NCBI GenBank assembly: GCA_900318265.1
Contig: ONKA01000008.1
Span: 1 to 64,000 of the forward strand
DNA length: 64,000 nucleotides
Source of the DNA: an uncultured Bacteroidales bacterium
GTDB taxonomy: Bacteria > Bacteroidota > Bacteroidia > Bacteroidales > F082
Reading direction: 5' to 3'
The translations under genes were made by a program, and so were the position numbers. This document shows positions 6,597-63,305 of the stretch, piece by piece. The notes under the pieces are model-generated. The model searched no databases. It had not been told where the DNA came from and worked only from the letters and a program-made list of their open reading frames with translations. Every line of letters starts with the position of its first letter. Positions within the stretch are counted from its first letter, which is position 1.

Positions 6597-6637
6597 TAGC
6601 TTGTGCTGCGATTTGGCACAGGCTTTTGTTTTCTTTG
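6597..6637 (+). promoter_or_regulatory. Island dyad-promoter module, copy 1 (PLD unit)
   Basis: Left arm 6597-6606 (TAGCTTGTGC), 9-base centre, right arm 6616-6625 (GCACAGGCTT), 8-base spacer, then TTTG at 6634-6637 within TTTTCTTTGCA. No plus-strand gene lies upstream, so this copy cannot be explained merely as a terminator of a preceding unit. A second promoter lies 47 bases further down. Confidence 0.8.
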
Positions 6638-6683
6638 CAGCGGAAAACACCAACTGCGGTCTTCACATTCAGGGAACTTATGC

Positions 6684-6691
6684 TATTTTTG
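6684..6691 (+). promoter_or_regulatory. Second -7 box upstream of the PLD gene
   Basis: TATTTTTG followed by CATT, 22 bases before the ATG at 6714. It matches TAnnTTTG exactly, unlike the box of dyad copy 1, so the gene may have one regulated and one constitutive start. Confidence 0.6.
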
Positions 6692-6713
6692 CATTATTAA
6701 ACAAACAACAACC

Positions 6714-7226
6714 ATGTTGAAACTCATCACCGATTCTGCCCATTACACCGAAGTCCTTGCCCTTGTCCCCAAGGTCAAGCGCAGCCTCTGGATTGGCACC
6801 GCCGACATCAAAGACCTATATGTCAAGGTAGGCTCTCAAACGAAGCCCTTCCTAGCGGTCTTGGCGCAGCTCATCAAAAAAGGCGTTGAGGTACGGCTTA
6901 TCCACGCCAAAGAGCCAGGTCCCGCGTTTCGTGAGGACTTTGACAAATACCCGACCTTGTTTGATGGTTTGGAGAGGGCACTCTGCCCAAGAGTGCATTT
7001 CAAGATCTTGGTCTTCGACGGTCAAGTGGCATATATTGGCAGCGCAACCCTTACCGGCGCAGGCATCGGCATGAAAGGCGACGGCACTCGCAACTTCGAG
7101 GCGGGCATCCTCACCGACAACCCTGAGCTAGTTGAGCAAGCCATGAACCAATTCGATGCCGTCTGGATTGGAAAACATTGCAAGTCCTGTAAACGGAAAG
7201 CCTTTTGCGGCGACCCAATCGCCTGA
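6714..7226 (+). CDS. Small phospholipase-D-fold protein with C-terminal Cys cluster
   Basis: The 170-residue protein has one PLD-type half-site: H95-x-K97 in VHFKILVFDG followed by YIGSATLTG. PLD-fold enzymes with one motif dimerise; bacterial members include nucleases and phosphodiesterases. Residues 156, 159 and 165 are Cys (HCKSCKRKAFC), possibly a metal site with Cys91. No signal peptide is seen. A longer reading from 6603 would pass through the promoter and is rejected. The gene is the first unit of the dyad-promoter island; nuclease activity is plausible but is inference. Confidence 0.8.
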   Translation: MLKLITDSAHYTEVLALVPKVKRSLWIGTADIKDLYVKVGSQTKPFLAVLAQLIKKGVEVRLIHAKEPGPAFREDFDKYPTLFDGLERALCPRVHFKILVFDGQVAYIGSATLTGAGIGMKGDGTRNFEAGILTDNPELVEQAMNQFDAVWIGKHCKSCKRKAFCGDPIA

Positions 7227-7251
7227 TTTTTTCAAAAAAAGAAAATCTTTC

Positions 7252-7292
7252 AAGCCTGTGCAACAAATTGGCACAGGCTTCTTTTTTCTTTG
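7252..7292 (+). promoter_or_regulatory. Island dyad-promoter module, copy 2 (AAA+ unit)
   Basis: Perfect arms AAGCCTGTGC (7252-7261) and GCACAGGCTT (7271-7280), 9-base centre, 8-base spacer, TTTG at 7289-7292. It lies 25 bases after the PLD stop and 33 bases before the AAA+ ATG. The T-rich spacer means the RNA hairpin could also terminate the upstream unit. Confidence 0.85.
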
Positions 7293-7325
7293 CAGCGTAA
7301 ACAAATAACGAAAGAAAGGATTGCT

Positions 7326-8987
7326 ATGGAAACCAAGAAAAGAACAACCCACAAAATGGACTTATTATCTGCTGTGGAAAAAGTAGTAGAACTCTCAAAA
7401 GGCTCACATTTAGAAGCCGAGTTCTTCAAAAAGGCAGCACGCCCTATAAAATACATCGCTGATAAGCTTGAACTAACCAAGGAACAAAGCGTGATGATGG
7501 CTCTTTTTATCGACAATAGCAGCGATACGAGTATCAGAATTAGCGATTTCGCCGAAAAGCTTGAATGCAGCACCACTCGTATCTTACGTTTTATGAAAGA
7601 TGTCGATGAGCTGGCAAATAGAGGGTTGGTTTATTCGTGCCGTGAACGCAAGGGTATAACCTATCGGGTGCCATTGGAGGTAATCGAGGCTTTCAAACAA
7701 AACGAAAAATACACACCAAGCATGCACACTGGATTGTCGTGTTCAGAATTATTCAGCGTAATTGCAGAAATCATGGATATGCGTGATGACAACGAACTAA
7801 GCACAGAAACAGCAACTACAATGCTGCAATCTTTGCTTGAAAACAACAAGCATTTGCTCTTCGTGCAAAAGTTGAAGAGTTTCAAGTTTTGGGAAGAAGA
7901 CGAATTGCTACTGCTTATTTTTTCGCATCTATTTGTCAATAACAACGACGACAATATCGGCTTTCACGACCTTAGCTTCTTTTACGACCGCAGACACAGA
8001 TGGAATTCCATCAAAAGCACCCTTGCCAACAATACAAACAACTTATTGGAAACAAAGATGATTGAATACAACAACGACAACGGCTTTGTAAACAATGAGT
8101 CGTTTAGAATGACCTGGCAGGCTAAAGAACAATTATTTTCCGAACTCAACCTTGCTTCAATGAACCAAGAAAACGACAGAAAGAACGTCATCAAGCATGA
8201 AGGGATTGTTGAGAAACAGCTCTTCTATGATAAAGAAGTTGAGTCACAGGTTAAGGATTTATGCCAATTGTTAGAAGAGTCACATTATCGTGAGATTTGC
8301 AACCGTTTGGCCGAAAATGGCTATCGCACTGGATTCACCTGCTTGTTTTACGGTGCGCCTGGCACGGGAAAAACAGAAACCGTGTTACAGTTGGCTCGTC
8401 AAACAGGGCGCGACATTATGCAAGTCAACATTTCGGAGATTAAAAGCATGTGGGTAGGTGAAAGCGAGAAAAACATCAAGAATGTTTTTGACCAATACCG
8501 AATAAAGGTTGAAAAATCCACCGTTGCCCCTATCTTGCTTTTCAACGAGGCAGATGCCATCATTGGTAAGCGCCAAGAAGGTGCCGAACGAGCCGTTGAA
8601 AAGATGGAAAACACTATCCAAAACATCATCCTTCAGGAAATGGAAAATCTCAACGGCATTCTCATCGCCACCACCAACCTTGCCCAAAACATGGATAAGG
8701 CCTTCGAGCGTCGTTTCCTTTACAAAATCAAGTTCAACAAGCCAACGCTTGAAGCAAGGATGCAAATCTGGCACACTATGCTTCCAGACTTGAATGAGAC
8801 CGACATCCAGACCTTGGCTGAGCGTTACGACTTCAGCGGTGGCCAGATTGAGAATGTCGCCCGTCACTACGCCATAGACACCGTCTTACACGGCAATGCT
8901 TCATTAGAGACTCTAATGGCTCATTGCGATGGCGAACGCCTCGAACAGAAAGAAAGCCAGAAAATAGGCTTCAATAAAACAATGTGA
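7326..8987 (+). CDS. AAA+ ATPase with N-terminal winged-helix-like region
   Basis: The 553-residue protein starts at the ATG at 7326, after an A/G-rich stretch. Residues ~60-120 look like a winged-helix DNA-binding fold (IRISDFAEKLECSTTRILRFM). The C-terminal AAA+ domain has Walker A GAPGTGKTE at 343-351, sensor-1 ATTN, the FERRF arginine-finger region, and sensor-2 GGQIEN. Walker B reads ILLFNEAD, with Asn407 in place of the usual Asp and the catalytic Glu408 kept. The fold is of the SpoVK/FtsH-like group. Its target is unknown; in this island a role in a defence complex or as a DNA-bound remodeller is inference. Base composition is more AT-rich than in the PLD gene before it. Confidence 0.88.
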   Translation: METKKRTTHKMDLLSAVEKVVELSKGSHLEAEFFKKAARPIKYIADKLELTKEQSVMMALFIDNSSDTSIRISDFAEKLECSTTRILRFMKDVDELANRGLVYSCRERKGITYRVPLEVIEAFKQNEKYTPSMHTGLSCSELFSVIAEIMDMRDDNELSTETATTMLQSLLENNKHLLFVQKLKSFKFWEEDELLLLIFSHLFVNNNDDNIGFHDLSFFYDRRHRWNSIKSTLANNTNNLLETKMIEYNNDNGFVNNESFRMTWQAKEQLFSELNLASMNQENDRKNVIKHEGIVEKQLFYDKEVESQVKDLCQLLEESHYREICNRLAENGYRTGFTCLFYGAPGTGKTETVLQLARQTGRDIMQVNISEIKSMWVGESEKNIKNVFDQYRIKVEKSTVAPILLFNEADAIIGKRQEGAERAVEKMENTIQNIILQEMENLNGILIATTNLAQNMDKAFERRFLYKIKFNKPTLEARMQIWHTMLPDLNETDIQTLAERYDFSGGQIENVARHYAIDTVLHGNASLETLMAHCDGERLEQKESQKIGFNKTM

Positions 8988-8995
8988 AGTTTTTT

Positions 8996-9036
8996 GAGCC
9001 TGTGCCTCGATATGGCGCAGGCTCACTTTTTCTTTG
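8996..9036 (+). promoter_or_regulatory. Island dyad-promoter module, copy 3 (Trp-repeat unit)
   Basis: Arms GAGCCTGTGC (8996-9005) and GCGCAGGCTC (9015-9024), 9-base centre, 8-base spacer, TTTG at 9033-9036. The outermost pair is G-C where other copies have A-T, a paired change that supports selection for symmetry. Confidence 0.85.
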
Positions 9037-9081
9037 CAGCGAGAAACCAATAAAAGTACTAACACTTAAATATAAAAAGTC

Positions 9082-9621
9082 ATGGAAACCAACAAAGTAA
9101 ACGATTACCTGATGAAAAAAATGATTCAGAAAGAAGCAATGAAGAAAATCTCTTCCGATTATCCACTAACTGATGAATTGCTGAAGGAATACTGCAACGA
9201 TTTGGATTGGGAGGAAGTATCGGAGAACAGCAACATCAAATGGACAGCCGCAATGATTGACCGTTGGGGCGAGTATCTGAATTGGAAAACATTCTCTGAA
9301 AGAGCAAACGAAGAAATCCTGATTCCCGAAATCATCGAGAAATTCAAAGACCGTTGGGATTGGAGCGAACTTTCAGCCAACTCTGATCTAAAACTCACTT
9401 ATGACCTTATCGACAAATACATTGACCGTTGGGATTGGAATAGGCTCATTAACCGTGGCTGGTACAGCAGCGAAAACGAACTGTATTCCATCGATTTCCT
9501 CAACCGCTATGTGAAGTACATCCCAATGGAAGATTTTGAAAAGTCCAATTTATGGGATTCCATTGTTGAAGAGGAGGAAAAGGCGATAAAGAAAGCAATT
9601 ATGCTGAAAGACAACAAATAA
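9082..9621 (+). CDS. Trp-rich tandem-repeat protein, 179 residues
   Basis: I do not recognise a named family. From about residue 45 the protein holds three ~35-residue helical repeats with the pattern DW-x2-[VLF]-S-x-N-x3, a middle Ile-Asp segment and a closing DRW or EYLNW: DWEEVSENSN, NWKTFSERAN and DWSELSANSD open the units, and DWNRLINRG starts a partial fourth. Repeats of this kind occur in uncharacterised Bacteroidota proteins and suggest a helical scaffold. No signal or membrane segment is present. It is the first gene of the third island unit and is followed 12 bases later by a 73-residue protein. Confidence 0.75.
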   Translation: METNKVNDYLMKKMIQKEAMKKISSDYPLTDELLKEYCNDLDWEEVSENSNIKWTAAMIDRWGEYLNWKTFSERANEEILIPEIIEKFKDRWDWSELSANSDLKLTYDLIDKYIDRWDWNRLINRGWYSSENELYSIDFLNRYVKYIPMEDFEKSNLWDSIVEEEEKAIKKAIMLKDNK

Positions 9622-9633
9622 AGTATTCCTATC

Positions 9634-9855
9634 ATGAGCAAAGTATTTAAAGTATGGCCCAAGCGGGTCAAAAGAGTGAACGTCACAGTGCTTACACCTG
9701 AAATGGTCATCATTGTGACCCTACCAACCCATGTTTCCAATCCCTTCAGCAATGGTGCCAAGGAAATCAAGGAAACCTACATGCGCATCTACCAATTCGA
9801 CTACCAGAAAGCCAACTGCTATCAGTCGGACTTCAATTATACTGCATTGGATTGA
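9634..9855 (+). CDS. Small hypothetical protein, 73 residues
   Basis: The ATG at 9634 is 12 bases after the Trp-repeat gene stop, so the two form one unit. The protein is basic at the N-terminus (KVWPKRVKRVN) with a central hydrophobic stretch (VIIVTLPTHVSNPF) and an aromatic C-terminal half (YQFDYQKANCYQSDF). No family is recognised. Its position suggests a small partner of the repeat protein, an inference from spacing only. Confidence 0.6.
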   Translation: MSKVFKVWPKRVKRVNVTVLTPEMVIIVTLPTHVSNPFSNGAKEIKETYMRIYQFDYQKANCYQSDFNYTALD

Positions 9856-9875
9856 GGAATAGCTAAAATGCCATC

Positions 9876-9916
9876 AAGCCTGTGCCTCAATTCAGCACAG
9901 GCTTCTTGTTTCTTTG
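9876..9916 (+). promoter_or_regulatory. Island dyad-promoter module, copy 4 (DUF262 unit)
   Basis: Perfect arms AAGCCTGTGC (9876-9885) and GCACAGGCTT (9895-9904), 9-base centre, 8-base spacer, TTTG at 9913-9916. It is 20 bases after the preceding stop. The following ATG is 129 bases away and has a second promoter in between. Confidence 0.85.
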
Positions 9917-9978
9917 CATAGTGGAAGCACCAAATTAAATAAGTAGAAAGATTGTTTTTCAGCTCTGAATAAAAACTG

Positions 9979-9986
9979 TAATTTTG
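9979..9986 (+). promoter_or_regulatory. Second -7 box upstream of the acidic repeat protein
   Basis: TAATTTTG, an exact TAnnTTTG match 59 bases before the ATG at 10046. As in the PLD unit, a dyad module is followed by a plain promoter. Confidence 0.55.
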
Positions 9987-10045
9987 CGAAGTGTTTTCTC
10001 ACAAATATACATAAGCCGAAATAAACATCAATAAAGTTCGTAGCA

Positions 10046-10846
10046 ATGATGACAGAACTAACTGACAAGCTAATACAAGATGCTTTCGCCGAAACAAGCA
10101 TTGACCCTAAATACTATCCTCAATACGAGGCAGAAGTAAAACGTCGCTATAAAGAACTCCAAGAAGAAGATCCTGACTACGAAGAATCTCCTGATAAGGA
10201 TAATGCCCACGTCAGCATAGACCTAACAAATGAATACATAGTTTACTATGTTGCAGAAATAGAAAAAGGTCATTGCCAACAATGGGCGCACTCATTTGCT
10301 GATAATCTCGTTTTAGAAGAAAATGAAGAATCTGCAATAAGAAGCGCCTTAGAAGAATTGAATGAAGAAGATAAGCAGAAAGAACTTGAAATCCATGCCA
10401 ACTCTATAAACATAGATCCTGTATTTGTAGATCGTTATACAATCTTGTTTGACTTAGGCGAGCCGGATGTAAGAGAGAAAGCTGAAGATTATTGTCGGGC
10501 ATATCATAAATGTATTAAGCAGGGTAAAAGTGATATTTATGCCCATGCCTATGCAGATGCTGTAAATGAAAACTATTATGAGGAGTATTGTGAGATTTAT
10601 GCTGAAGCGTATGAAGTCGCAACCAATCATGGACAAGATGACTCAGAAGCCTATCTTTTTGGTGTTTTTTGCACAGACGCAGCCGACCAAGGCTATTGGT
10701 TAATGCTGAACAAGTTTAAAACGGAATTCAAAGAAGATTGGCAAAAAGAGTTCTACATGCTCCTGATAAAACGCGAACTCGAACAAGAAGAGAAACGGCC
10801 ATTAACAGCTGGAGAAATTAACGAACTTAGAAAAGACATTTGGTAA
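10046..10846 (+). CDS. Acidic helical-repeat protein, 266 residues
   Basis: No named family is recognised. The protein is strongly acidic, with roughly twice as many Asp/Glu as Lys/Arg. It has degenerate repeats of about 35-40 residues built on aromatic-Ala helices: YIVYYVAEIEKG, YCRAYHKCIKQGKSD and YAEAYEVATNHGQDD each begin a unit, with AHAYADA-type second helices. It has no signal or membrane segment. The DUF262-DUF1524 gene starts 1 base after its stop, so translational coupling and a shared complex are likely. An acidic partner could act as an inhibitor, DNA mimic or scaffold for the nuclease; that is speculation. An ATG 3 bases downstream is an equally possible start. Confidence 0.75.
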   Translation: MMTELTDKLIQDAFAETSIDPKYYPQYEAEVKRRYKELQEEDPDYEESPDKDNAHVSIDLTNEYIVYYVAEIEKGHCQQWAHSFADNLVLEENEESAIRSALEELNEEDKQKELEIHANSINIDPVFVDRYTILFDLGEPDVREKAEDYCRAYHKCIKQGKSDIYAHAYADAVNENYYEEYCEIYAEAYEVATNHGQDDSEAYLFGVFCTDAADQGYWLMLNKFKTEFKEDWQKEFYMLLIKRELEQEEKRPLTAGEINELRKDIW

Positions 10847-10847
10847 A

Positions 10848-12635
10848 ATGGAAGACTTAATCCCAATTAGTAAATTAAAAGGCATCACTTTTTTTATTCC
10901 AAGCCACCAGAGAGGATATAGATGGAGAGAAGAAAATGTTATTGCGATGCTATCTGACTTTAAAGAGTTTATCGCACAAGGGAAATCTGATGATAGCAAA
11001 GGAAGGGTGTATTGTTTACAACCCTTAGCTATTACACCAAATGGAAATGATTCTTATTGTGTTGAAGATGGCCAGCAACGATTGACTACACTATATCTTC
11101 TTATCAAGTACTTGTTTGAAGATGATAATCATTTCTATTCATTTGAGTTTGAGAGTGATCAAAATAATCGACGTAAGAATTTCATGGAGAACGGTGTTAT
11201 AGATGAAAACTATAAACAGTTTTCCGATATTAACTTTTTTCATATCGCTTGGGCGTACCAAACCATCAAAAAATGGTTTGAATCTGGCGATGGTAAAGGT
11301 TGGGAAAATGATTTCAAAGTATTACTGAACGCATCGGAAAAAGAAAACTCTTTGCAATTTATATGGTATGAAATTAGTAAAGAAAATGCCAGGAAGGTAT
11401 TTCGAGATCTCAATTATGGGAAAATTAGACTTACAGGGTCTGATTTAATTAAGGCGTTATTGCTTTCAAAGGATAATGGACTATCAAATGAGCAGCGTAT
11501 TGTTATCTCAACCCAATTAGATGAAATGAGCCAACGTCTATCTGATAACAGATTCTGGTTCGTATTCCAACATCATGCCCCTTTGTATCATTCTGACAGA
11601 CTAGATTTTTTGTTTAATCTAACCGAAAAAGTCAGTGATGATGAATACAAGCACTATCCGTATAAAGCATTTGAAGCTTTTGCCAAAGCAAAGAAGAATA
11701 ATTGCTTGTATGAAGAATGGCAGAAAGCAAGAAAAATGTATCACAATCTAGAGGATTTCTATGAGAATCCTTTTATCTATCATTACATTGGCTTCCTTGT
11801 CTTCCTTTCTGGCAATACGTCAAAATCAACTTTTCCGCTTTATGACTGGATAAAAAAATACCAGTCTACTACTAAGATTCGTTTCGTTATTGAATTAAGG
11901 AAGAGTATAAAAGCAAAGATAGGCTTGACAGGCATTGAAATAGAGAAGGTGGAGTATAGTGACAGAGAAAAAGTAAGGTCTATACTGCTACTACACAATA
12001 TTGAAACTGTTCTATTGCAGTATAGAACAATGAGAAAACGACTCGGGCTTCAAAGAGAGTTTGAGCAATTCCCATTTGATTTATTACATCGTCAAAACTG
12101 GGACATCGAGCATTTAGCCTCACAAACCGATAATCCTTTAAAATCCGAGAAAGAGTGGAACGAATGGATTGATAGCACCAAAACAGATTATCCTAGTTTA
12201 TTTAAGTCATCATTAAACAAAGATTCTTCTGAGGAAACCAACAGAATCCTTATACTCTATAACAAATATATTTCAAAAAAGGTTGGTAATAGAAAAGGAG
12301 ATGATTTCAAGGATCTATATAAACTCATTGTTGAATCAATTGATAAGGAGCTTGGCGAAGAAAAAGTTAAGTTCAAAGATGGCATAGGTAATCTTGTTCT
12401 ACTTGACAGACATACAAATAGAAGCTATCACAATTCGTTATATCCAACGAAGAGAAAAACAATCATTGAATCAAACGCATATATTCCGATATGCACAAAA
12501 AGAGTCTTTACAAAGTTCTATAACACAACACCTTCAGTCAGAATGAATGCCTGGACACAAACAGATTATGATTTCTATCTGAAAGATATAATGAATACAC
12601 TATACTTTTATCTTTCTCCTCAATACAAACAGTAA
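10848..12635 (+). CDS. DUF262-DUF1524 protein (GmrSD-type nuclease-like)
   Basis: The 595-residue protein has the two halves of GmrSD type IV restriction proteins. The N-terminal DUF262 carries FIPSHQRGYRW (16-26) and EDGQQRLTTLY (from 73), the ParB-like NTP-binding motifs. The C-terminal DUF1524 HNH-type nuclease has DIEHLASQ with His422 and GNLVLLDRHTN from 514, the expected ordering. Known GmrSD proteins use NTPs and cut modified phage DNA; whether this one does is inference. It lies between the acidic protein (1-base gap) and a second DUF262 protein (1-base overlap). The DNA is strikingly AT-rich relative to the flanks, as expected for an acquired defence gene. Confidence 0.9.
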   Translation: MEDLIPISKLKGITFFIPSHQRGYRWREENVIAMLSDFKEFIAQGKSDDSKGRVYCLQPLAITPNGNDSYCVEDGQQRLTTLYLLIKYLFEDDNHFYSFEFESDQNNRRKNFMENGVIDENYKQFSDINFFHIAWAYQTIKKWFESGDGKGWENDFKVLLNASEKENSLQFIWYEISKENARKVFRDLNYGKIRLTGSDLIKALLLSKDNGLSNEQRIVISTQLDEMSQRLSDNRFWFVFQHHAPLYHSDRLDFLFNLTEKVSDDEYKHYPYKAFEAFAKAKKNNCLYEEWQKARKMYHNLEDFYENPFIYHYIGFLVFLSGNTSKSTFPLYDWIKKYQSTTKIRFVIELRKSIKAKIGLTGIEIEKVEYSDREKVRSILLLHNIETVLLQYRTMRKRLGLQREFEQFPFDLLHRQNWDIEHLASQTDNPLKSEKEWNEWIDSTKTDYPSLFKSSLNKDSSEETNRILILYNKYISKKVGNRKGDDFKDLYKLIVESIDKELGEEKVKFKDGIGNLVLLDRHTNRSYHNSLYPTKRKTIIESNAYIPICTKRVFTKFYNTTPSVRMNAWTQTDYDFYLKDIMNTLYFYLSPQYKQ

Positions 12636-15184
12636 TGGCAGCGACTTTCTATAATACATTTGAGAATAAAGCTATCTTGATTCCAAGATTACAACGTGAT
12701 TATGTGCAAGGATTGAATGTTGCATTGATTAGCGACTTCATCGAAAGACTTGTCTATTCCGTTCAAGAAGGCAAGAACGAAGATTTGAATTATATTTATG
12801 GCAGATGGGTTGATGATGGCTCTAAGTATATACCAATTGACGGACAGCAACGTTTGACTACGCTTTGGTTGCTCCATCTTTATTCACATTCAGCATCCTT
12901 GCCTCAAAATCCATTTCCTGTTTCTATCATCTTTGAATCTCGGGAACATGCTCAATCATTTTGCGATTGTCTAAAAAGAGAACTTGGAGGAATAATCAAG
13001 AGTTGTCCCCAAGGACGTTTGTGTCAACAAATTGTTAATCAAGCATGGTTCCAAAGAATTTGGCTTAAAGATCGCACTGTAAAATCAATGCTTTCAGCAT
13101 TGGATGTAATAAGAACTAAAATAAAGGGCGTTGACATCTCTAGCTTTAATGAAAAGTTAAAGTCCACCAAATCCATTACTTTCAAATTCTACAAAATAGA
13201 TGGCAAGTTAAATGATGATGTATATATTAAAATGAATGGAAGAGGCCTTCCATTGACTGATTTTGAAATTCTAAAATCATGGTTGGATGGCAAAATTGAG
13301 GAAGTGTGCCATAACAATTTAAGCTGGCTACAATTATGGCAAAACAATCTTGATAATAGCTGGACCGAATTGATATGGAAGAATAGGAATCTTGATGAAA
13401 AAGATAGCATAGGTAATGATATTTCTTTTTTGATTGATGATGAGTTTTTGAGGTTTTTCTACAATTTAATCCTTATCTACTGGCTATTGCTTAAAGTGAA
13501 TCATCATCAGAAAAAGTCCGATATCTGTGGAATAGCTGACGAACAATCAGATAGTCGTTTGAATGATATTGGTCGCCTGTTGAATATGGAAAAAGATGTT
13601 GAGAAAGAAGAATTCCCGGAAATGGTATATGATAGACTAATGAATCGTTTTATAGGTGATGGTGAATATTATCTTCCTCTATATTTACTTGACAAAACCA
13701 ATATTTTTACCCCTAGACTGCTTGTTTTCATTTATACTGCATTTCAAGAACTAGTACAGAGCCAAAGCATACCCGAAAAGGAATGGTTGTTTGGCAATCG
13801 TGAGACCTTGCTGAATTTTCATGTTGGGGCAACCTCCAGTAATACCATCTTCCATCAAATTGCATTGGAGGATAAGCCAACTTATAAGAACCTGTGCTTG
13901 CTTTATGCATCATTAAAACCATTGTCAAAGAAAGAAGGATCTGCAACGTCATTCTTTGACTGGATGCGCGTGATGAGAAATCTTATCTTAGGTACCAATA
14001 TCACCAAAGAGAATATTAGTAGAGTCTTAAAATCTATCCATGACTTTTCTGCACTTTGTAAGAAAAAGAATATATACGAGTTGCTTGCTGATGGTATATT
14101 AAGAGAAGATTCTTCAGGTTTTAATCAAAGTCAGTTTGAAGAAGAAATTAAAAAAGCGCAATGGATTATCGAAGATAGTAGTTGGGCACAGGTATTTAAC
14201 AACTTTGAAAACACAGCCTTTTGTAAAGGCACCATTGGCTTTATCTTTGGCTATTTGCCGGAACAAAGAAATATTAAAATCTTCAGAGAGTATTCAACGC
14301 TATTCCATCTATTGTTTGGAGAATCTGGTGTTAGATATAACATTCAAGATGGTTTTATTCTTCAACGCAGTTTGATGTGTTTCACATCACATTATGGATT
14401 TGGTTACAGTTATGGGGATAATAAGGATTATAAATGGAAATTCATGGACAATCGAGACGAATGGCATAAGTTCCTAAAAGACTCAGTTGAATATGAAGGT
14501 CAGCCTCATAATCAATGTATGAAGACGCTATTATTTCTATTGTACGAAAGGTTGCATAACCAGATAGATTTGTCGAATTACAACGAGGAATATGTGCAGG
14601 TTTTAGTCGCTGAGTTGGATTTGGTTATTAAAGGCACATTGCAGAATAACACTATCAAAGATTGGAGATACTATTTCATAAAATATCCATCTGTTTGGAC
14701 TGCAATGGGAAAATCATTGTGTTACTGGGTAAACGATTATAATATAATGATTTTAGGAAGCACTCAATATAGAGGCGGGAACATTAGAGAATTACATTCT
14801 TTTGCATTTATGAAGGATGTCGAAGCGGATAAAGAGGAGCACCCCAAAAAGTATAACAATTGGAATAATCTTGGTTTCTGGTACTATGATAATACATGCA
14901 TGTATATTGACCACAATTGTATGACAAAAAGAATCGTTAGAATCGATTTATTCTATGAGCTAGACAAAGCAGACCAATATCGATTTAGATTATTCTACCT
15001 GCCTAACAAGAATGAAGAATCAGAAGTGACATATCAAGCTACTTTCAATGATTTATTACCTATAGCAGAGAAACACTCTTTCAAGTTCCAAGAATTGGAT
15101 CACAAGTATTATTCCTCCTGTTATTCATACGAAGATGCAGTTTTAGTGTTTAATGAGTTATTGAAAGAACTTGAATCGTATTAA
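12635..15184 (+). CDS. Large second DUF262 protein, 849 residues, unrecognised C-terminal half
   Basis: The start ATG overlaps the preceding stop by one base (TAATG), so translation is coupled. The N-terminal DUF262 domain shows LIPRLQRDY (15-23), PIDGQQRLTTLW (Asp69) and later NGRGLPLTDFEILKS. I see no DUF1524 His motif (EH-x2-P/S-Q) or GN-x-L-L motif, so the nuclease part of GmrD appears absent. The long C-terminal region is rich in Trp, Tyr and Asn and has no motif I can name; it may be a sensor or a divergent effector. Pairing with the complete DUF262-DUF1524 protein suggests a two-subunit complex. Composition is AT-rich. Confidence 0.85.
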   Translation: MAATFYNTFENKAILIPRLQRDYVQGLNVALISDFIERLVYSVQEGKNEDLNYIYGRWVDDGSKYIPIDGQQRLTTLWLLHLYSHSASLPQNPFPVSIIFESREHAQSFCDCLKRELGGIIKSCPQGRLCQQIVNQAWFQRIWLKDRTVKSMLSALDVIRTKIKGVDISSFNEKLKSTKSITFKFYKIDGKLNDDVYIKMNGRGLPLTDFEILKSWLDGKIEEVCHNNLSWLQLWQNNLDNSWTELIWKNRNLDEKDSIGNDISFLIDDEFLRFFYNLILIYWLLLKVNHHQKKSDICGIADEQSDSRLNDIGRLLNMEKDVEKEEFPEMVYDRLMNRFIGDGEYYLPLYLLDKTNIFTPRLLVFIYTAFQELVQSQSIPEKEWLFGNRETLLNFHVGATSSNTIFHQIALEDKPTYKNLCLLYASLKPLSKKEGSATSFFDWMRVMRNLILGTNITKENISRVLKSIHDFSALCKKKNIYELLADGILREDSSGFNQSQFEEEIKKAQWIIEDSSWAQVFNNFENTAFCKGTIGFIFGYLPEQRNIKIFREYSTLFHLLFGESGVRYNIQDGFILQRSLMCFTSHYGFGYSYGDNKDYKWKFMDNRDEWHKFLKDSVEYEGQPHNQCMKTLLFLLYERLHNQIDLSNYNEEYVQVLVAELDLVIKGTLQNNTIKDWRYYFIKYPSVWTAMGKSLCYWVNDYNIMILGSTQYRGGNIRELHSFAFMKDVEADKEEHPKKYNNWNNLGFWYYDNTCMYIDHNCMTKRIVRIDLFYELDKADQYRFRLFYLPNKNEESEVTYQATFNDLLPIAEKHSFKFQELDHKYYSSCYSYEDAVLVFNELLKELESY

Positions 15185-15228
15185 CCTATTGTTTTGAATC
15201 ATTAAAGAAACATTTTATGTTTACCATC

Positions 15229-15269
15229 AAGCTTGTGCAACAATTCGGCGCAGGCTTTTTATATCTTTG
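15229..15269 (+). promoter_or_regulatory. Island dyad-promoter module, copy 5 (WYL regulator's own promoter)
   Basis: Arms AAGCTTGTGC (15229-15238) and GCGCAGGCTT (15248-15257), 9-base centre, 8-base spacer, TTTG at 15266-15269. This copy alone has a perfect TATCTTTG box; copies 1-4 have TTTCTTTG (or close). The module upstream of the regulator implies autoregulation. Confidence 0.85.
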
Positions 15270-15312: not shown

Positions 15313-16221
15313 ATGTCTAAAAACCAAATCAACAAATATGTCTGGCTTGTAGAGACACTATACAAAGCCAAGAAAATAACGCTTAAGGAAATCAACCGCA
15401 AATGGTTGGAAACCGATTTGAGCGAAGGCTTGGAGATTCCTCGCCGCACCTTCGACAATTGGAAGAAAGCTGTAGAGGATATGTTTGGTCTTGTCATTAT
15501 GTGTGATAAGCGCGATGGTGACCGCTATTACATCGAGAACCGCGAGGTGCTTGAGGACGACAGCCTGCAACGCTGGCTGTTCAGCACTATGTCGGTCAAC
15601 AACACGCTGTTGGAAAACAAAGCGCTCAGCGACCGCATCCTGTTGGAAAGCATCCCATCGGGTCAGGACTTCCTCGCCACGGTCATGGAAGCGATGAAGA
15701 AAAACCGATTGCTGGAAATCACCTATAAAGGCTTTTGGAGCGAAAGCGAACACATCTTCCCCGTGGCGCCTTATTGCGTGAAGTTGTTCCGGCAGCGGTG
15801 GTACATGGTGGGCAACAGCGTTTACGAAGACAAGATCCGCATCTATTCCCTAGATCGCGTACTGGAAGCCCAATTGTCGGAGGAGACCTTCAAATACCCC
15901 AAGAAATTCAGCCCAGAAAACTACTTCAAAGGCTGTTTCGGCATCATTCGCGACGAGGATTGCCCCATCGAGACCGTGAAGCTGAAAGTAAGCGCCGACC
16001 AAGCCAACTACCTGCGTTCCCTACCCTTGCATCCTTCACAAAAGGAGCTGGTGCATACGGGCGAATACAGCATCTTCTCCGTTGAGGTGCGCCCTACCTT
16101 CGACTTCCAACAGGAACTTCTCTGGAACGGCGACGCGCTTGAAGTGTTGGAGCCGCTTTGGCTGCGTAAGGAAATGGCGGGGATGGTGAAACGGATGTGG
16201 GACAATTACAGCAAGAAATGA
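15313..16221 (+). CDS. WYL-domain transcriptional regulator
   Basis: The 302-residue protein has an N-terminal helix-turn-helix-like region (residues ~5-80, IPRRTFDNWKKAVEDMF), a WYL domain (~120-195, with RWYMVGN at 162-168 in place of the canonical Trp-Tyr-Leu, and IRIYSLDRVLEA), and a C-terminal WCX-like region. WYL proteins such as BrxR and CapW bind inverted repeats at defence-system promoters and respond to nucleotide-type ligands. Here five inverted repeats precede five units in the same island, including this gene. The exonuclease gene overlaps its stop (ATGA). Base composition resembles the core genome rather than the AT-rich DUF262 genes. Confidence 0.9.
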   Translation: MSKNQINKYVWLVETLYKAKKITLKEINRKWLETDLSEGLEIPRRTFDNWKKAVEDMFGLVIMCDKRDGDRYYIENREVLEDDSLQRWLFSTMSVNNTLLENKALSDRILLESIPSGQDFLATVMEAMKKNRLLEITYKGFWSESEHIFPVAPYCVKLFRQRWYMVGNSVYEDKIRIYSLDRVLEAQLSEETFKYPKKFSPENYFKGCFGIIRDEDCPIETVKLKVSADQANYLRSLPLHPSQKELVHTGEYSIFSVEVRPTFDFQQELLWNGDALEVLEPLWLRKEMAGMVKRMWDNYSKK

Positions 16222-16712
16222 ACTCCTTCGCCGCCATAGACTTCGAGACCGCCAACAACGAGCGCACCAGCGTGTGCAGCGTGGGCGTAGTCATTGTCCG
16301 CGAAGGCGAGTTCGTGGACTCGTTTTATTCGCTCATTCAGCCTGAGCCGAATTATTACCTGTATTGGAACACGCTCGTCCACGGCATCACCAAGGCCGAC
16401 ACCGAGGATGCGCCCGTGTTTCCATACGTCTGGCAAAAGATTGAGCCGCTCATCGAGGGTTTGCCTCTCGTGGCGCACAACAGTCCTTTCGATGAAGGCT
16501 GCCTCAAGGCAGTGATGCGCTGCTACCAAATGGATTACCCTGATTATCAGTTCTATTGCACCTGCCGCGCCGCGCGCAAACACTTCGGAAAACTTCTGCC
16601 CAACCACCAGCTGCATACCGTGGCAGCAGCCTGCGGCTACGATTTAATCAACCACCATAACGCGCTCGCCGATGCCGAAGCCTGCGCATGGATCGCTCGG
16701 GAGATATTGTAA
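16218..16712 (+). CDS. DEDDh 3'-5' exonuclease (DnaQ-like)
   Basis: The 164-residue protein matches the epsilon/RNase T exonuclease fold: ExoI motif AIDFET with D8 and E10, ExoII around AHNSPFDEG, and ExoIII HNALADAEA with the catalytic His and Asp near the C-terminus. The start ATG overlaps the WYL stop by 4 bases (ATGA), so both are made from one message; a longer GTG-started reading lies inside the WYL gene and is unlikely. It could trim DNA or RNA ends or small nucleotides; its coupling to a WYL sensor suggests it may shape the signal the sensor reads, which is inference. Confidence 0.9.
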   Translation: MNSFAAIDFETANNERTSVCSVGVVIVREGEFVDSFYSLIQPEPNYYLYWNTLVHGITKADTEDAPVFPYVWQKIEPLIEGLPLVAHNSPFDEGCLKAVMRCYQMDYPDYQFYCTCRAARKHFGKLLPNHQLHTVAAACGYDLINHHNALADAEACAWIAREIL

Positions 16713-62312: not shown

Positions 62313-63305
62313 ATGGCAAAGAAAGAAACCAACTCAAAACTTGAAATCACAATTTGTGATATCAAAGGCATTGACAGTATCAATATAGAATCTTTGATAC
62401 GCGTAATAAGAGGCCAACAGGTGATGCTTGATTCTGATTTGGCGATGCTGTATGGTGTTGAAACCAAGAGATTGAACGAACAGGTGAAACGAAATCTCAA
62501 TCGTTTTCCGGAGGATTTCATGTTTCAACTCACTCATGATGAGGCAGTTAGTCTAAGATCACAAATTGTTACCTTAAACGAAGAGAAAAATTCTTTAAGG
62601 TCGCAAATTGCGACCATAAACGAGGAAGAAGTAATCTTGAAGTCGCAAATTGCGACATCAAGTTGGGGAGGCACTCGAAAACTTCCCTATGCCTTCACCC
62701 GCAATGGCATCGCCATGCTCAGCAGCGTTTTAAGGTCTGATACTGCTGTGGAAGTCAACATCCGCATCATGCGCGCATTTACCATGATTCCGCAACTCGT
62801 CAATCACAACACGCAGATTATTGAGCGCATCTTCAACATTGAGCAGCATCAACAAGAAACAGACAAAACGATTAAGGTTATTCTTGATAGAATCGAGGAC
62901 GTTAGTCCAAAACTCCTCCCCGAGCAAGTCTTCCCAACCGGTTGCGTCTGGGATGCATGGACTTACATCTCCGACCTCATTCGAAGTGCCCGACAAAGGA
63001 TTGTCTTGATTGACAACTATGTTGACGACCGAGTACTCTCCATGTTCACAAAGCGGAAAGACGGCGTTTCAGCGACCATCTTCACTCGGCATAATGAACA
63101 ATTCCTCACCGACCTTAAGAAGCACAACGCCCAATATCCCGAAATCGAGTTCATTCAACTGCCACACCGAAACCACGACCGCTTCCTGATCATCGACGAT
63201 AAAGTCTTTTTGTTGGGAGCAAGCTTGAAGGACATGGGAACGGGGCTTTGCGCGGTTACTGAGATGAAAATTGCGCCGGAGGTAATTCTAGGGTTGCTAA
63301 AGTGA
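62313..63305 (+). CDS. ORF6N-domain protein with C-terminal PLD-like domain
   Basis: The 330-residue protein has an N-terminal ORF6N (phage antirepressor-type) DNA-binding domain: VIRGQQVMLDSDLAMLYGVE, NRFPEDFMFQL and the PYAFTRNGIAMLSSVLRS end. In between, a 14-residue unit (SLRSQI-[VA]-T-x-NEE-x2) is repeated three times, the third partial. The C-terminal part has an H-x-R/K-x4-D type PLD-like motif in HDRFLIIDDKVFLLGASLKDMG. It likely binds DNA; the PLD-like part may be a nuclease or a structural remnant. The gene has own dyads and promoter. Confidence 0.88.
   Translation: MAKKETNSKLEITICDIKGIDSINIESLIRVIRGQQVMLDSDLAMLYGVETKRLNEQVKRNLNRFPEDFMFQLTHDEAVSLRSQIVTLNEEKNSLRSQIATINEEEVILKSQIATSSWGGTRKLPYAFTRNGIAMLSSVLRSDTAVEVNIRIMRAFTMIPQLVNHNTQIIERIFNIEQHQQETDKTIKVILDRIEDVSPKLLPEQVFPTGCVWDAWTYISDLIRSARQRIVLIDNYVDDRVLSMFTKRKDGVSATIFTRHNEQFLTDLKKHNAQYPEIEFIQLPHRNHDRFLIIDDKVFLLGASLKDMGTGLCAVTEMKIAPEVILGLLK
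62549..62656 (+). repeat. In-frame 42-base tandem repeat in the ORF6N gene
   Basis: Units begin at about 62549, 62591 and 62633 and encode SLRSQIVTLNEEKN, SLRSQIATINEEEV and ILKSQIAT. Copies differ at several bases. Confidence 0.75.

Follow-up and report, generated by a model that had tools for sequence, protein, structure and literature searches.

In the first 64,000 nucleotides of contig ONKA01000008.1 of an uncultured Bacteroidales bacterium (assembly GCA_900318265.1, lineage F082; this whole stretch is hereafter the window), five transcription units stand in a row, each preceded by an inverted repeat (dyad) that is joined at a fixed distance to a predicted -7 promoter box; dyad and box together are termed the module. 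According to our comparison of sequences from assemblies of varying completeness, the dyad is best read as the shared operator of the array units and its binder is most likely the WYL protein encoded by the last of them, since the module tracks the WYL gene among related genomes, a dyad occupies the regulator's own promoter, and the arms change between WYL clades with their position kept constant. The comparison thus suggests that one regulator at the end of the row switches exchangeable, partly defence-like genes jointly in gut and rumen Bacteroidales. The fuller reading, in which the WYL protein would activate all units from this operator with single-stranded DNA (ssDNA) as the likely trigger, is in our judgement moderately probable.

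All five dyads were re-found where the initial annotation had placed them (Table 1), with the described build of 10-base arms around a 9-base centre and with the TTTG of the Bacteroidetes -7 box starting 8 bases past the right arm in each case; in other words, the TTTG starts at the first base of the dyad + 37, and 4 bases separate the dyad end from the 8-base box (5/5 window copies). The copies had been called identical, which does not hold, as the arms of copies 1, 3 and 5 are imperfectly paired (seen in reverse readings); likewise, the supposedly variable centre is constrained to approximately TTCAATTCG over 154 distinct sites in relatives, its middle positions being 94% A, 87% T and 83% T. 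From the same sites a consensus module was derived that spans about 50 bases and starts abruptly, on its left, with the dyad, roughly AGCCTGTGC-TTCAATTCG-GCACAGGCT-TTTGTTTTC-TTTGCAGCGTAAA; the sites were picked by their arms (at most 4 mismatches), a T-rich tail and TTTG/TTCG, so that the informative positions are confined to the centre and the flanks. Units were collected from 38 loci picked for modules or a WYL ortholog, of which 37 (two of them parts of one contig) yielded 130 units. The paired G-C change reported for copy 3 is present at the outermost dyad position, but only one of the 130 units has it: the right side of this position is T in 120 units, and the left side varies. The -7 box reads TTTCTTTG in copies 1-4 versus TATCTTTG, the usual TAnnTTTG form, in the copy of the WYL gene.

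The module is confined to the array in this genome. The core pattern GCYTGTGC-N9-GCRCAGGC occurs at exactly five places in the window, as the initial annotation had it, and with up to 3 mismatches it gave 12 strand-wise matches, whereas 100 shuffles averaged 1.62 and never exceeded 8. Across the whole genome (2.98 Mb in 50 contigs, 89% complete), the search with TTTG at the right distance and at most 2 mismatches recovered only the five dyads plus two reverse readings; numerous copies in front of unrelated genes, which would have spoken against a dedicated operator, were not found there. The arms alone matched one further place with 2 mismatches (C5:28176), and at 2-3 mismatches they gave 73 strand-wise matches besides the five dyads versus 41 for the reversed control. 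A chance repeat is ruled out by the excess over shuffles, by the module search of the genus genomes and by the offset-specific enrichment of dyads in divergent WYL loci (see below); a scan for sigma-70-type promoters was uninformative for this phylum.

Among 99 genomes of the genus, 45 including the present one contain the module (at most 2 mismatches), and the copy number per contig reaches 11 (G113:C31). Module and WYL ortholog occur together in 35 genomes, the module only in 10, the WYL gene only in three and neither in 51 (Fisher test, 3e-14, uncorrected for kinship); the ortholog cut of at least 74% identity was fixed after viewing the WYL search, and the count includes partial WYL matches in G101, G107, G127 and G140. 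A WYL gene that opens its unit has the dyad at its own promoter: a dyad lies within 130 bases upstream of the WYL gene in 10 of the 32 full-length WYL loci at this cut, and in most of the others the WYL gene comes after another gene of its unit; a module was present upstream of the WYL gene, at 53 to 2116 bases, in 29/29 WYL loci of the unit set. Modules on other contigs of relatives precede the same gene families as the array, and some of these contigs may be pieces of one broken array. The named relatives of the WYL locus (40 loci) are mostly uncultured Bacteroidales/Bacteroidia assemblies, many rumen-derived by title, with 'bacterium F082' among them. The claim of the initial annotation that the repeat is an operator over the -33 region is thereby supported by both the fixed box distance and the co-occurrence with WYL.

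In the 20 loci of more distant WYL proteins (49-61% identity), this place is often taken by other dyads, such as ACATGTGC-N9-GCACATGT in the 58-60% identity group, AAGGTATGCCC-N5-GGGCATACCTT, AACTTGTGC-N9-GCACAAGTT and TATGCCC-N5-GGGCATA; the arm types of loci with a WYL gene include ACATGTGC, AACTTGTGC, GGTATGCC and AGACCTGTGC. In 29 divergent WYL loci (447 kb), dyads with at least 8 consecutive paired bases were counted 13 times at a centre-to-TTTG distance of 23, whereas 165 other offsets averaged 1.69 and reached 6 at most; 3 of the 13 look unrelated to WYL. The order-level scan of 393 genomes yielded 25 with a match, three of them in this genus and most others with single 2-mismatch sites resembling chance; seven regions from six genomes were followed up. 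Outside the family, dyads of the AGACCTGTGC-N9-GCACAGGTCT type accompany a 48% WYL, a 75% PLD, a 60% AAA protein and a GmrSD pair in G484; G291 combines a 42% WYL beside a 73% PLD with a 71% DEDDh exonuclease; in G253 a 36% WYL lies close to a GmrSD pair and to a gene that is FtsZ-like by eye; and in Prevotella ihumii (53% WYL) AGGGTGTGCC-N7-GGCACACCCT occurs with unchanged offset, some 5 kb past the WYL gene. A further dyad type, TGTGCAATTCCATTGCACA-like, was seen at three sites of a same-genus genome (G104:C45, 4694, 6255 and 12224), possibly another regulon of this kind.

The window WYL protein matched Pfam WYL (7e-13) and WCX (3e-11) and belongs to the WYL-domain regulators; its N-terminus had no Pfam match, and its model (predicted local distance difference test, pLDDT, 71.8) contains N-terminal helices and wing-like strands. 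Foldseek ranked DriD first (5e-12), followed by PafBC (6e-11), CapW (9e-8) and BrxR (3e-6); in the sequence search DriD entries lead as well, weakly (E 0.002-0.008). This genome encodes two further WYL proteins (42% and 41% identity; G000:C21:70210-71067 and G000:C19:111866-112789). The WYL domains of DriD and PafBC bind ssDNA, and a CapW-ssDNA structure exists by title; an ssDNA trigger for the window protein is a guess from this kinship. Among 20 orthologs, R182 is invariant and R176 is shared by at least 90%. A signal of nucleic-acid nature would be in keeping with the neighbouring DEDDh exonuclease.

The architecture of the promoters bears on the sign of regulation. With its centre 23 bases ahead of TTTG, the dyad has one arm on either side of the -33 region, as counted from the predicted box. 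Over 345 dyad readings the spacing from the right arm to TTTG/TTCG, defined as free bases after GGC (10 in the module), was 10 in 146, 11 in 17 and another value in 14, with no box in 168; 163 of the 177 readings with a box thus have a spacing of 10 or 11, and many of the box-less ones are reverse readings of the same dyads. The boxes fall into two classes: effector units (103 of the 130) have TT at -12/-11 in 100/103 cases versus TA in 27/27 units starting with WYL or with its RhuM/Fic neighbour. In detail, the effector boxes are TTTCTTTG (92), TTTCTTCG (6), TTCCTTTG (2), TATCTTTG (2, one of which, in L135, is really the WYL gene's own promoter behind a tiny open reading frame) and CATCTTTG (1, left out of the first Fisher test on boxes); units starting with WYL (15) or RhuM/Fic (12) have TATCTTTG (25) or TATTTTTG (2). 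For comparison, 388 upstream regions without a dyad contain TA..TTTGC 149 times versus TT..TTTGC 17 times. Dyad quality runs the opposite way, with 0.43 mismatches to the consensus in effector dyads versus 1.96 in those of WYL or RhuM/Fic. From the two box classes and these mismatch counts it follows that a good site is combined with a weak core at the targets, and the reverse at the regulator promoter.

This arrangement resembles the one described for DriD, a WYL activator of Caulobacter (PDB 8tp8, 9pfv; PMC12340889): its site lies over -35, sigma region 4 lies between the two DNA-binding domains, and the distance to weak -10 boxes is constant. Both share the build of winged helix-turn-helix, WYL and WCX domains, the palindrome straddling -35/-33 at a constant distance from a weak -10/-7 box (here relative to the predicted box), and several promoters per regulon. 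The two differ in that the reported DriD targets are separate promoters (didA, bapE, recJ, dnaG and the operon beside driD) and not repeated sites in one array, and in the letters and centre of the site (N7 in DriD, N9 here). As far as the excerpts of the respective reports go, PafBC and SiwR (PMC11804915, PMC10693628) are likewise WYL activators acting via the stretch between -10 and -35, with ssDNA or genotoxic stress as the signal; PafBC is, however, a heterodimer with a wide stress regulon, and these excerpts describe no array of repeated modules for PafBC or SiwR. Activation by the WYL protein is favoured because a strong dyad is paired with a weak -7 box at the effectors, the dyad lies over -33 at a fixed distance, and DriD, whose sites are placed alike, is the top structural match.

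The most serious alternative, which we nevertheless regard as unlikely, is that the same WYL protein is a repressor whose dimer would occupy the -33 region, keeping every unit off until infection releases it. Two WYL regulators of defence loci do repress: CapW (PMC9122588), a WYL homodimer with a palindrome at a defence promoter, and BrxR (PMC9122601), a regulator encoded in a defence island, with inverted repeats and two sites in this one island. With its centre near -31 the dyad could keep sigma out, and a poor -7 box could simply tighten repression. However, the CapW palindrome overlaps -10 and serves one CBASS (cyclic-oligonucleotide-based antiphage signalling system) operon, and the BrxR repeats are of 11-5-11 build, with the first downstream of the predicted -10 and with two sites instead of one per unit. 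Here, no operator overlapping or downstream of -10 was found: the dyad precedes the -7 box by an almost constant distance. A weakened core beneath a strong site fits activation better, and the folds of DriD and PafBC score above those of CapW and BrxR. In RptR (PMC12255303), as partially seen in its report, a single regulator also serves a multi-system defence island, but this is a small (9-kDa) repressor not described there as a WYL protein, with three repeats in one promoter that overlap -10.

For activation, we infer the following mechanism. The WYL regulator of the last unit would bind the dyad before every unit. Each exchangeable unit would bring its own dyad fused to a -7 box at a fixed distance, and any unit entering the array would consequently join one regulon. 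With the dyad arms straddling the -33 region and poor effector -7 boxes, each promoter is expected to be feeble by itself and to depend on the WYL dimer for retaining RNA polymerase, in the manner of DriD. At the promoter of the regulator itself the -7 box is mostly good and the right arm often degenerate, so that some regulator would always be made. ssDNA from phage replication or DNA damage would be the likely trigger, bound by the WYL domain, and the outcome an SOS-like regulon of exchangeable defence-type units. A more far-reaching version is put forward tentatively as a plug-in promoter standard for immunity. In it, some 50 bases comprising operator and selectively weak promoter would travel with each defence unit, double as a joint for swaps between strains and bring each newcomer under one ssDNA-activated WYL protein; the outcome would be an SOS-like, all-at-once immune response, with operator letters co-changing with the regulator between lineages.

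Several observations weigh against an activating, ssDNA-responsive WYL protein as the common regulator. The ten genomes with a module match and no WYL protein of at least 74% identity are heterogeneous: G071 and G109 resemble chance, and G069, G075 and G099 hold a 53% WYL. Owing to shared descent the counts are non-independent and inflated by kinship. Six of the 20 divergent loci (L150, L152, L156-L158 and L165) showed no such dyad in these scans, G099 has the main arm type despite its 53% WYL, and L160, L161 and L210 contain two arm types each; outside the genus, no WYL gene was found beside the site in G536 and G213, and G175 has only part of a PLD gene at its site. In consequence, regulator and arms vary together broadly, not strictly. 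The nearest module upstream of the WYL gene has a poor box in 6/29 WYL loci (L070, L071, L114, L126, L127 and L148), where the regulator may depend on itself or on read-through. The effector modules may also have been copied from one ancestor, the poor box being inherited and not selected. The DriD ranking is weak on the sign of regulation because of the moderate model confidence (the pLDDT given above) and TM-scores (template modelling scores) of about 0.35. Finally, between the kept R176 and R182 the window protein has S179 where a second arginine might be expected (mapped by eye), so that one of the two arginines required for ssDNA binding by PafB may be a serine here; it is for this reason that the ssDNA trigger stays a guess.

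A second alternative dispenses with a regulator and takes the dyad and its T-run as the intrinsic terminator of the upstream unit fused to the next promoter. The 10-base arms followed by a T-rich stretch have this form (2/5 window copies were called terminator-like), 106 of the 128 units with a preceding gene follow a co-oriented one, and the median gap is 29 bases. Promoter-less related arms just after the AAA gene, with the next gene facing (L067:8551, L071:6183), resemble a bidirectional terminator, and the paired arm positions are slightly fewer after opposite-strand genes (7.64 vs 8.35 of 10). The remaining 22 of the 128 dyads, however, lie behind a gene on the opposite strand and are no further from the consensus than the others (0.68 vs 0.75 mismatches), and termination accounts neither for the conserved centre and the fixed box distance nor for arms that vary between WYL clades; the T-run is absent at the own promoters of divergent WYL genes (L166-L169, L142). 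The opposite-strand neighbours and the divergent dyads lacking a T-run lowered termination as the main function, which we consider improbable, and the dyad may have a terminator role alongside that of an operator.

In many, but not all, loci the array keeps its position, with the WYL gene and exonuclease as right flank and ABC transporter, hexosaminidase, PsuG-like and PfkB genes as left flank (PfkB by Pfam, the other three by eye). Units with the same first gene were found behind differing neighbours, and homology between such units starts at the dyad edge (identity 0.42 just left of it, 0.84 just inside; 429 pairs). Integron cassette arrays are co-oriented exchangeable units separated by a repeat, and a similar cassette system was suspected from the arrays at first; that the module is a recombination site moving units in this way is nonetheless very improbable, since the same edge arises where selection maintains a promoter amid unrelated neighbours (0.36 to 0.80 for units that differ in their genes), the two tyrosine recombinases (PF00589) of the genome are on C47 and C32, with no PF00589 match on the window contig C14 (serine recombinases were not searched for), and neither the constant distance to the -7 box nor the change of arms from one WYL clade to another would be explained. 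Unlike in integrons, the repeat here constitutes a promoter whose spacing is fixed. Units may also be exchanged by homologous recombination between module copies, beside the operator role of the module.

Searches of unit cluster representatives (20 proteins and 10 proteins) against Pfam and a defence library matched GmrSD, PD-(D/E)XK, FtsZ/tubulin GTPase, Nmad2/Nmad3 and HAD, and further RhuM/Fic, AAA_15/AAA_21, FtsK-like, YgjP-like and MoxR families and a GIY-YIG protein matching UzuA; a uracil-DNA-glycosylase match was below cut-off, and several representatives had no family in these searches. Regarding known anti-phage systems, units match single components or candidates (IetA-like AAA, DrmC-like PLD, GmrSD, UzuA and PDC-S models), and the defence-library searches established no complete system in the units. 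Based on the matched families, a defence function is likely for part of the unit content.

No report of a shared operator before each unit of a Bacteroidales defence array was found in the parts of the open-licence literature that were accessible, and on this ground a defence-type array whose exchangeable units all have the same site-plus-promoter module in front is regarded as new; WYL regulators of defence loci (CapW, BrxR) and multi-promoter WYL activators (DriD, PafBC) are known. The regulation of defence islands with many unrelated systems is poorly known, the examples CapW, BrxR and RptR being repressors at one or two promoters, and here one control module is common to 34 first-gene families, represented by 103 effector units from 35 loci. 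The module is therefore a searchable sign of units working together that nominates uncharacterised genes as defence candidates, and the divergent loci offer matched regulator-operator pairs. The prediction is that one signal switches the units on together.

Table 1. Modules and genes of the array in the window.
Feature	Position	Strand
Dyad (operator) copy 1, before PLD-like gene; left neighbour gene on opposite strand	6597..6625	+
-7 box copy 1, TTTCTTTG	6630..6637	+
Unit 1: PLD-like protein (PLDc_2; weak DrmC match, below its cut-off)	6714..7226	+
Dyad copy 2	7252..7280	+
-7 box copy 2, TTTCTTTG	7285..7292	+
Unit 2: AAA ATPase, IetA-like C-terminal half	7326..8987	+
Dyad copy 3	8996..9024	+
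-7 box copy 3, TTTCTTTG	9029..9036	+
Unit 3 gene 1: 179 amino acids (aa), no family match	9082..9621	+
Unit 3 gene 2: 73 aa, DUF6140	9634..9855	+
Dyad copy 4	9876..9904	+
-7 box copy 4, TTTCTTTG	9909..9916	+
Unit 4 gene 1: 266 aa, no family match	10046..10846	+
Unit 4 gene 2: GmrSD_N/GmrSD_C protein	10848..12635	+
Unit 4 gene 3: second GmrSD_N protein	12635..15184	+
Dyad copy 5, at the regulator's own promoter	15229..15257	+
-7 box copy 5, TATCTTTG	15262..15269	+
Unit 5: WYL-WCX transcription regulator, N-terminal winged-helix-like domain in model; proposed binder of all five dyads	15313..16221	+
DEDDh exonuclease, start overlaps WYL stop	16218..16712	+

Some units recur in a form that deserves mention. 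The DUF6140 protein of unit 3 belongs to a cluster of 14 members in 12 loci and stands first or second in units with unrelated partners. Tandem GmrSD_N-type pairs such as that of unit 4 (10046-15184, with the 266-aa gene in front) recur as units in L131 and L138, and in L209, from another genus, a gene that is FtsZ-like by eye adjoins a GmrSD pair. A three-gene unit of L064 (14702-16538) and relatives consists of a 222-aa protein of no named family, a 230-aa FtsZ/tubulin GTPase-domain protein and a small third protein whose weak PD-(D/E)XK match is below cut-off, and is a candidate new system. As to other features of the window, searches for Rfam families (at gathering threshold) and for tRNA genes gave no match, and a tandem repeat of 2.4 copies of a 42-base unit lies at 62554-62656.

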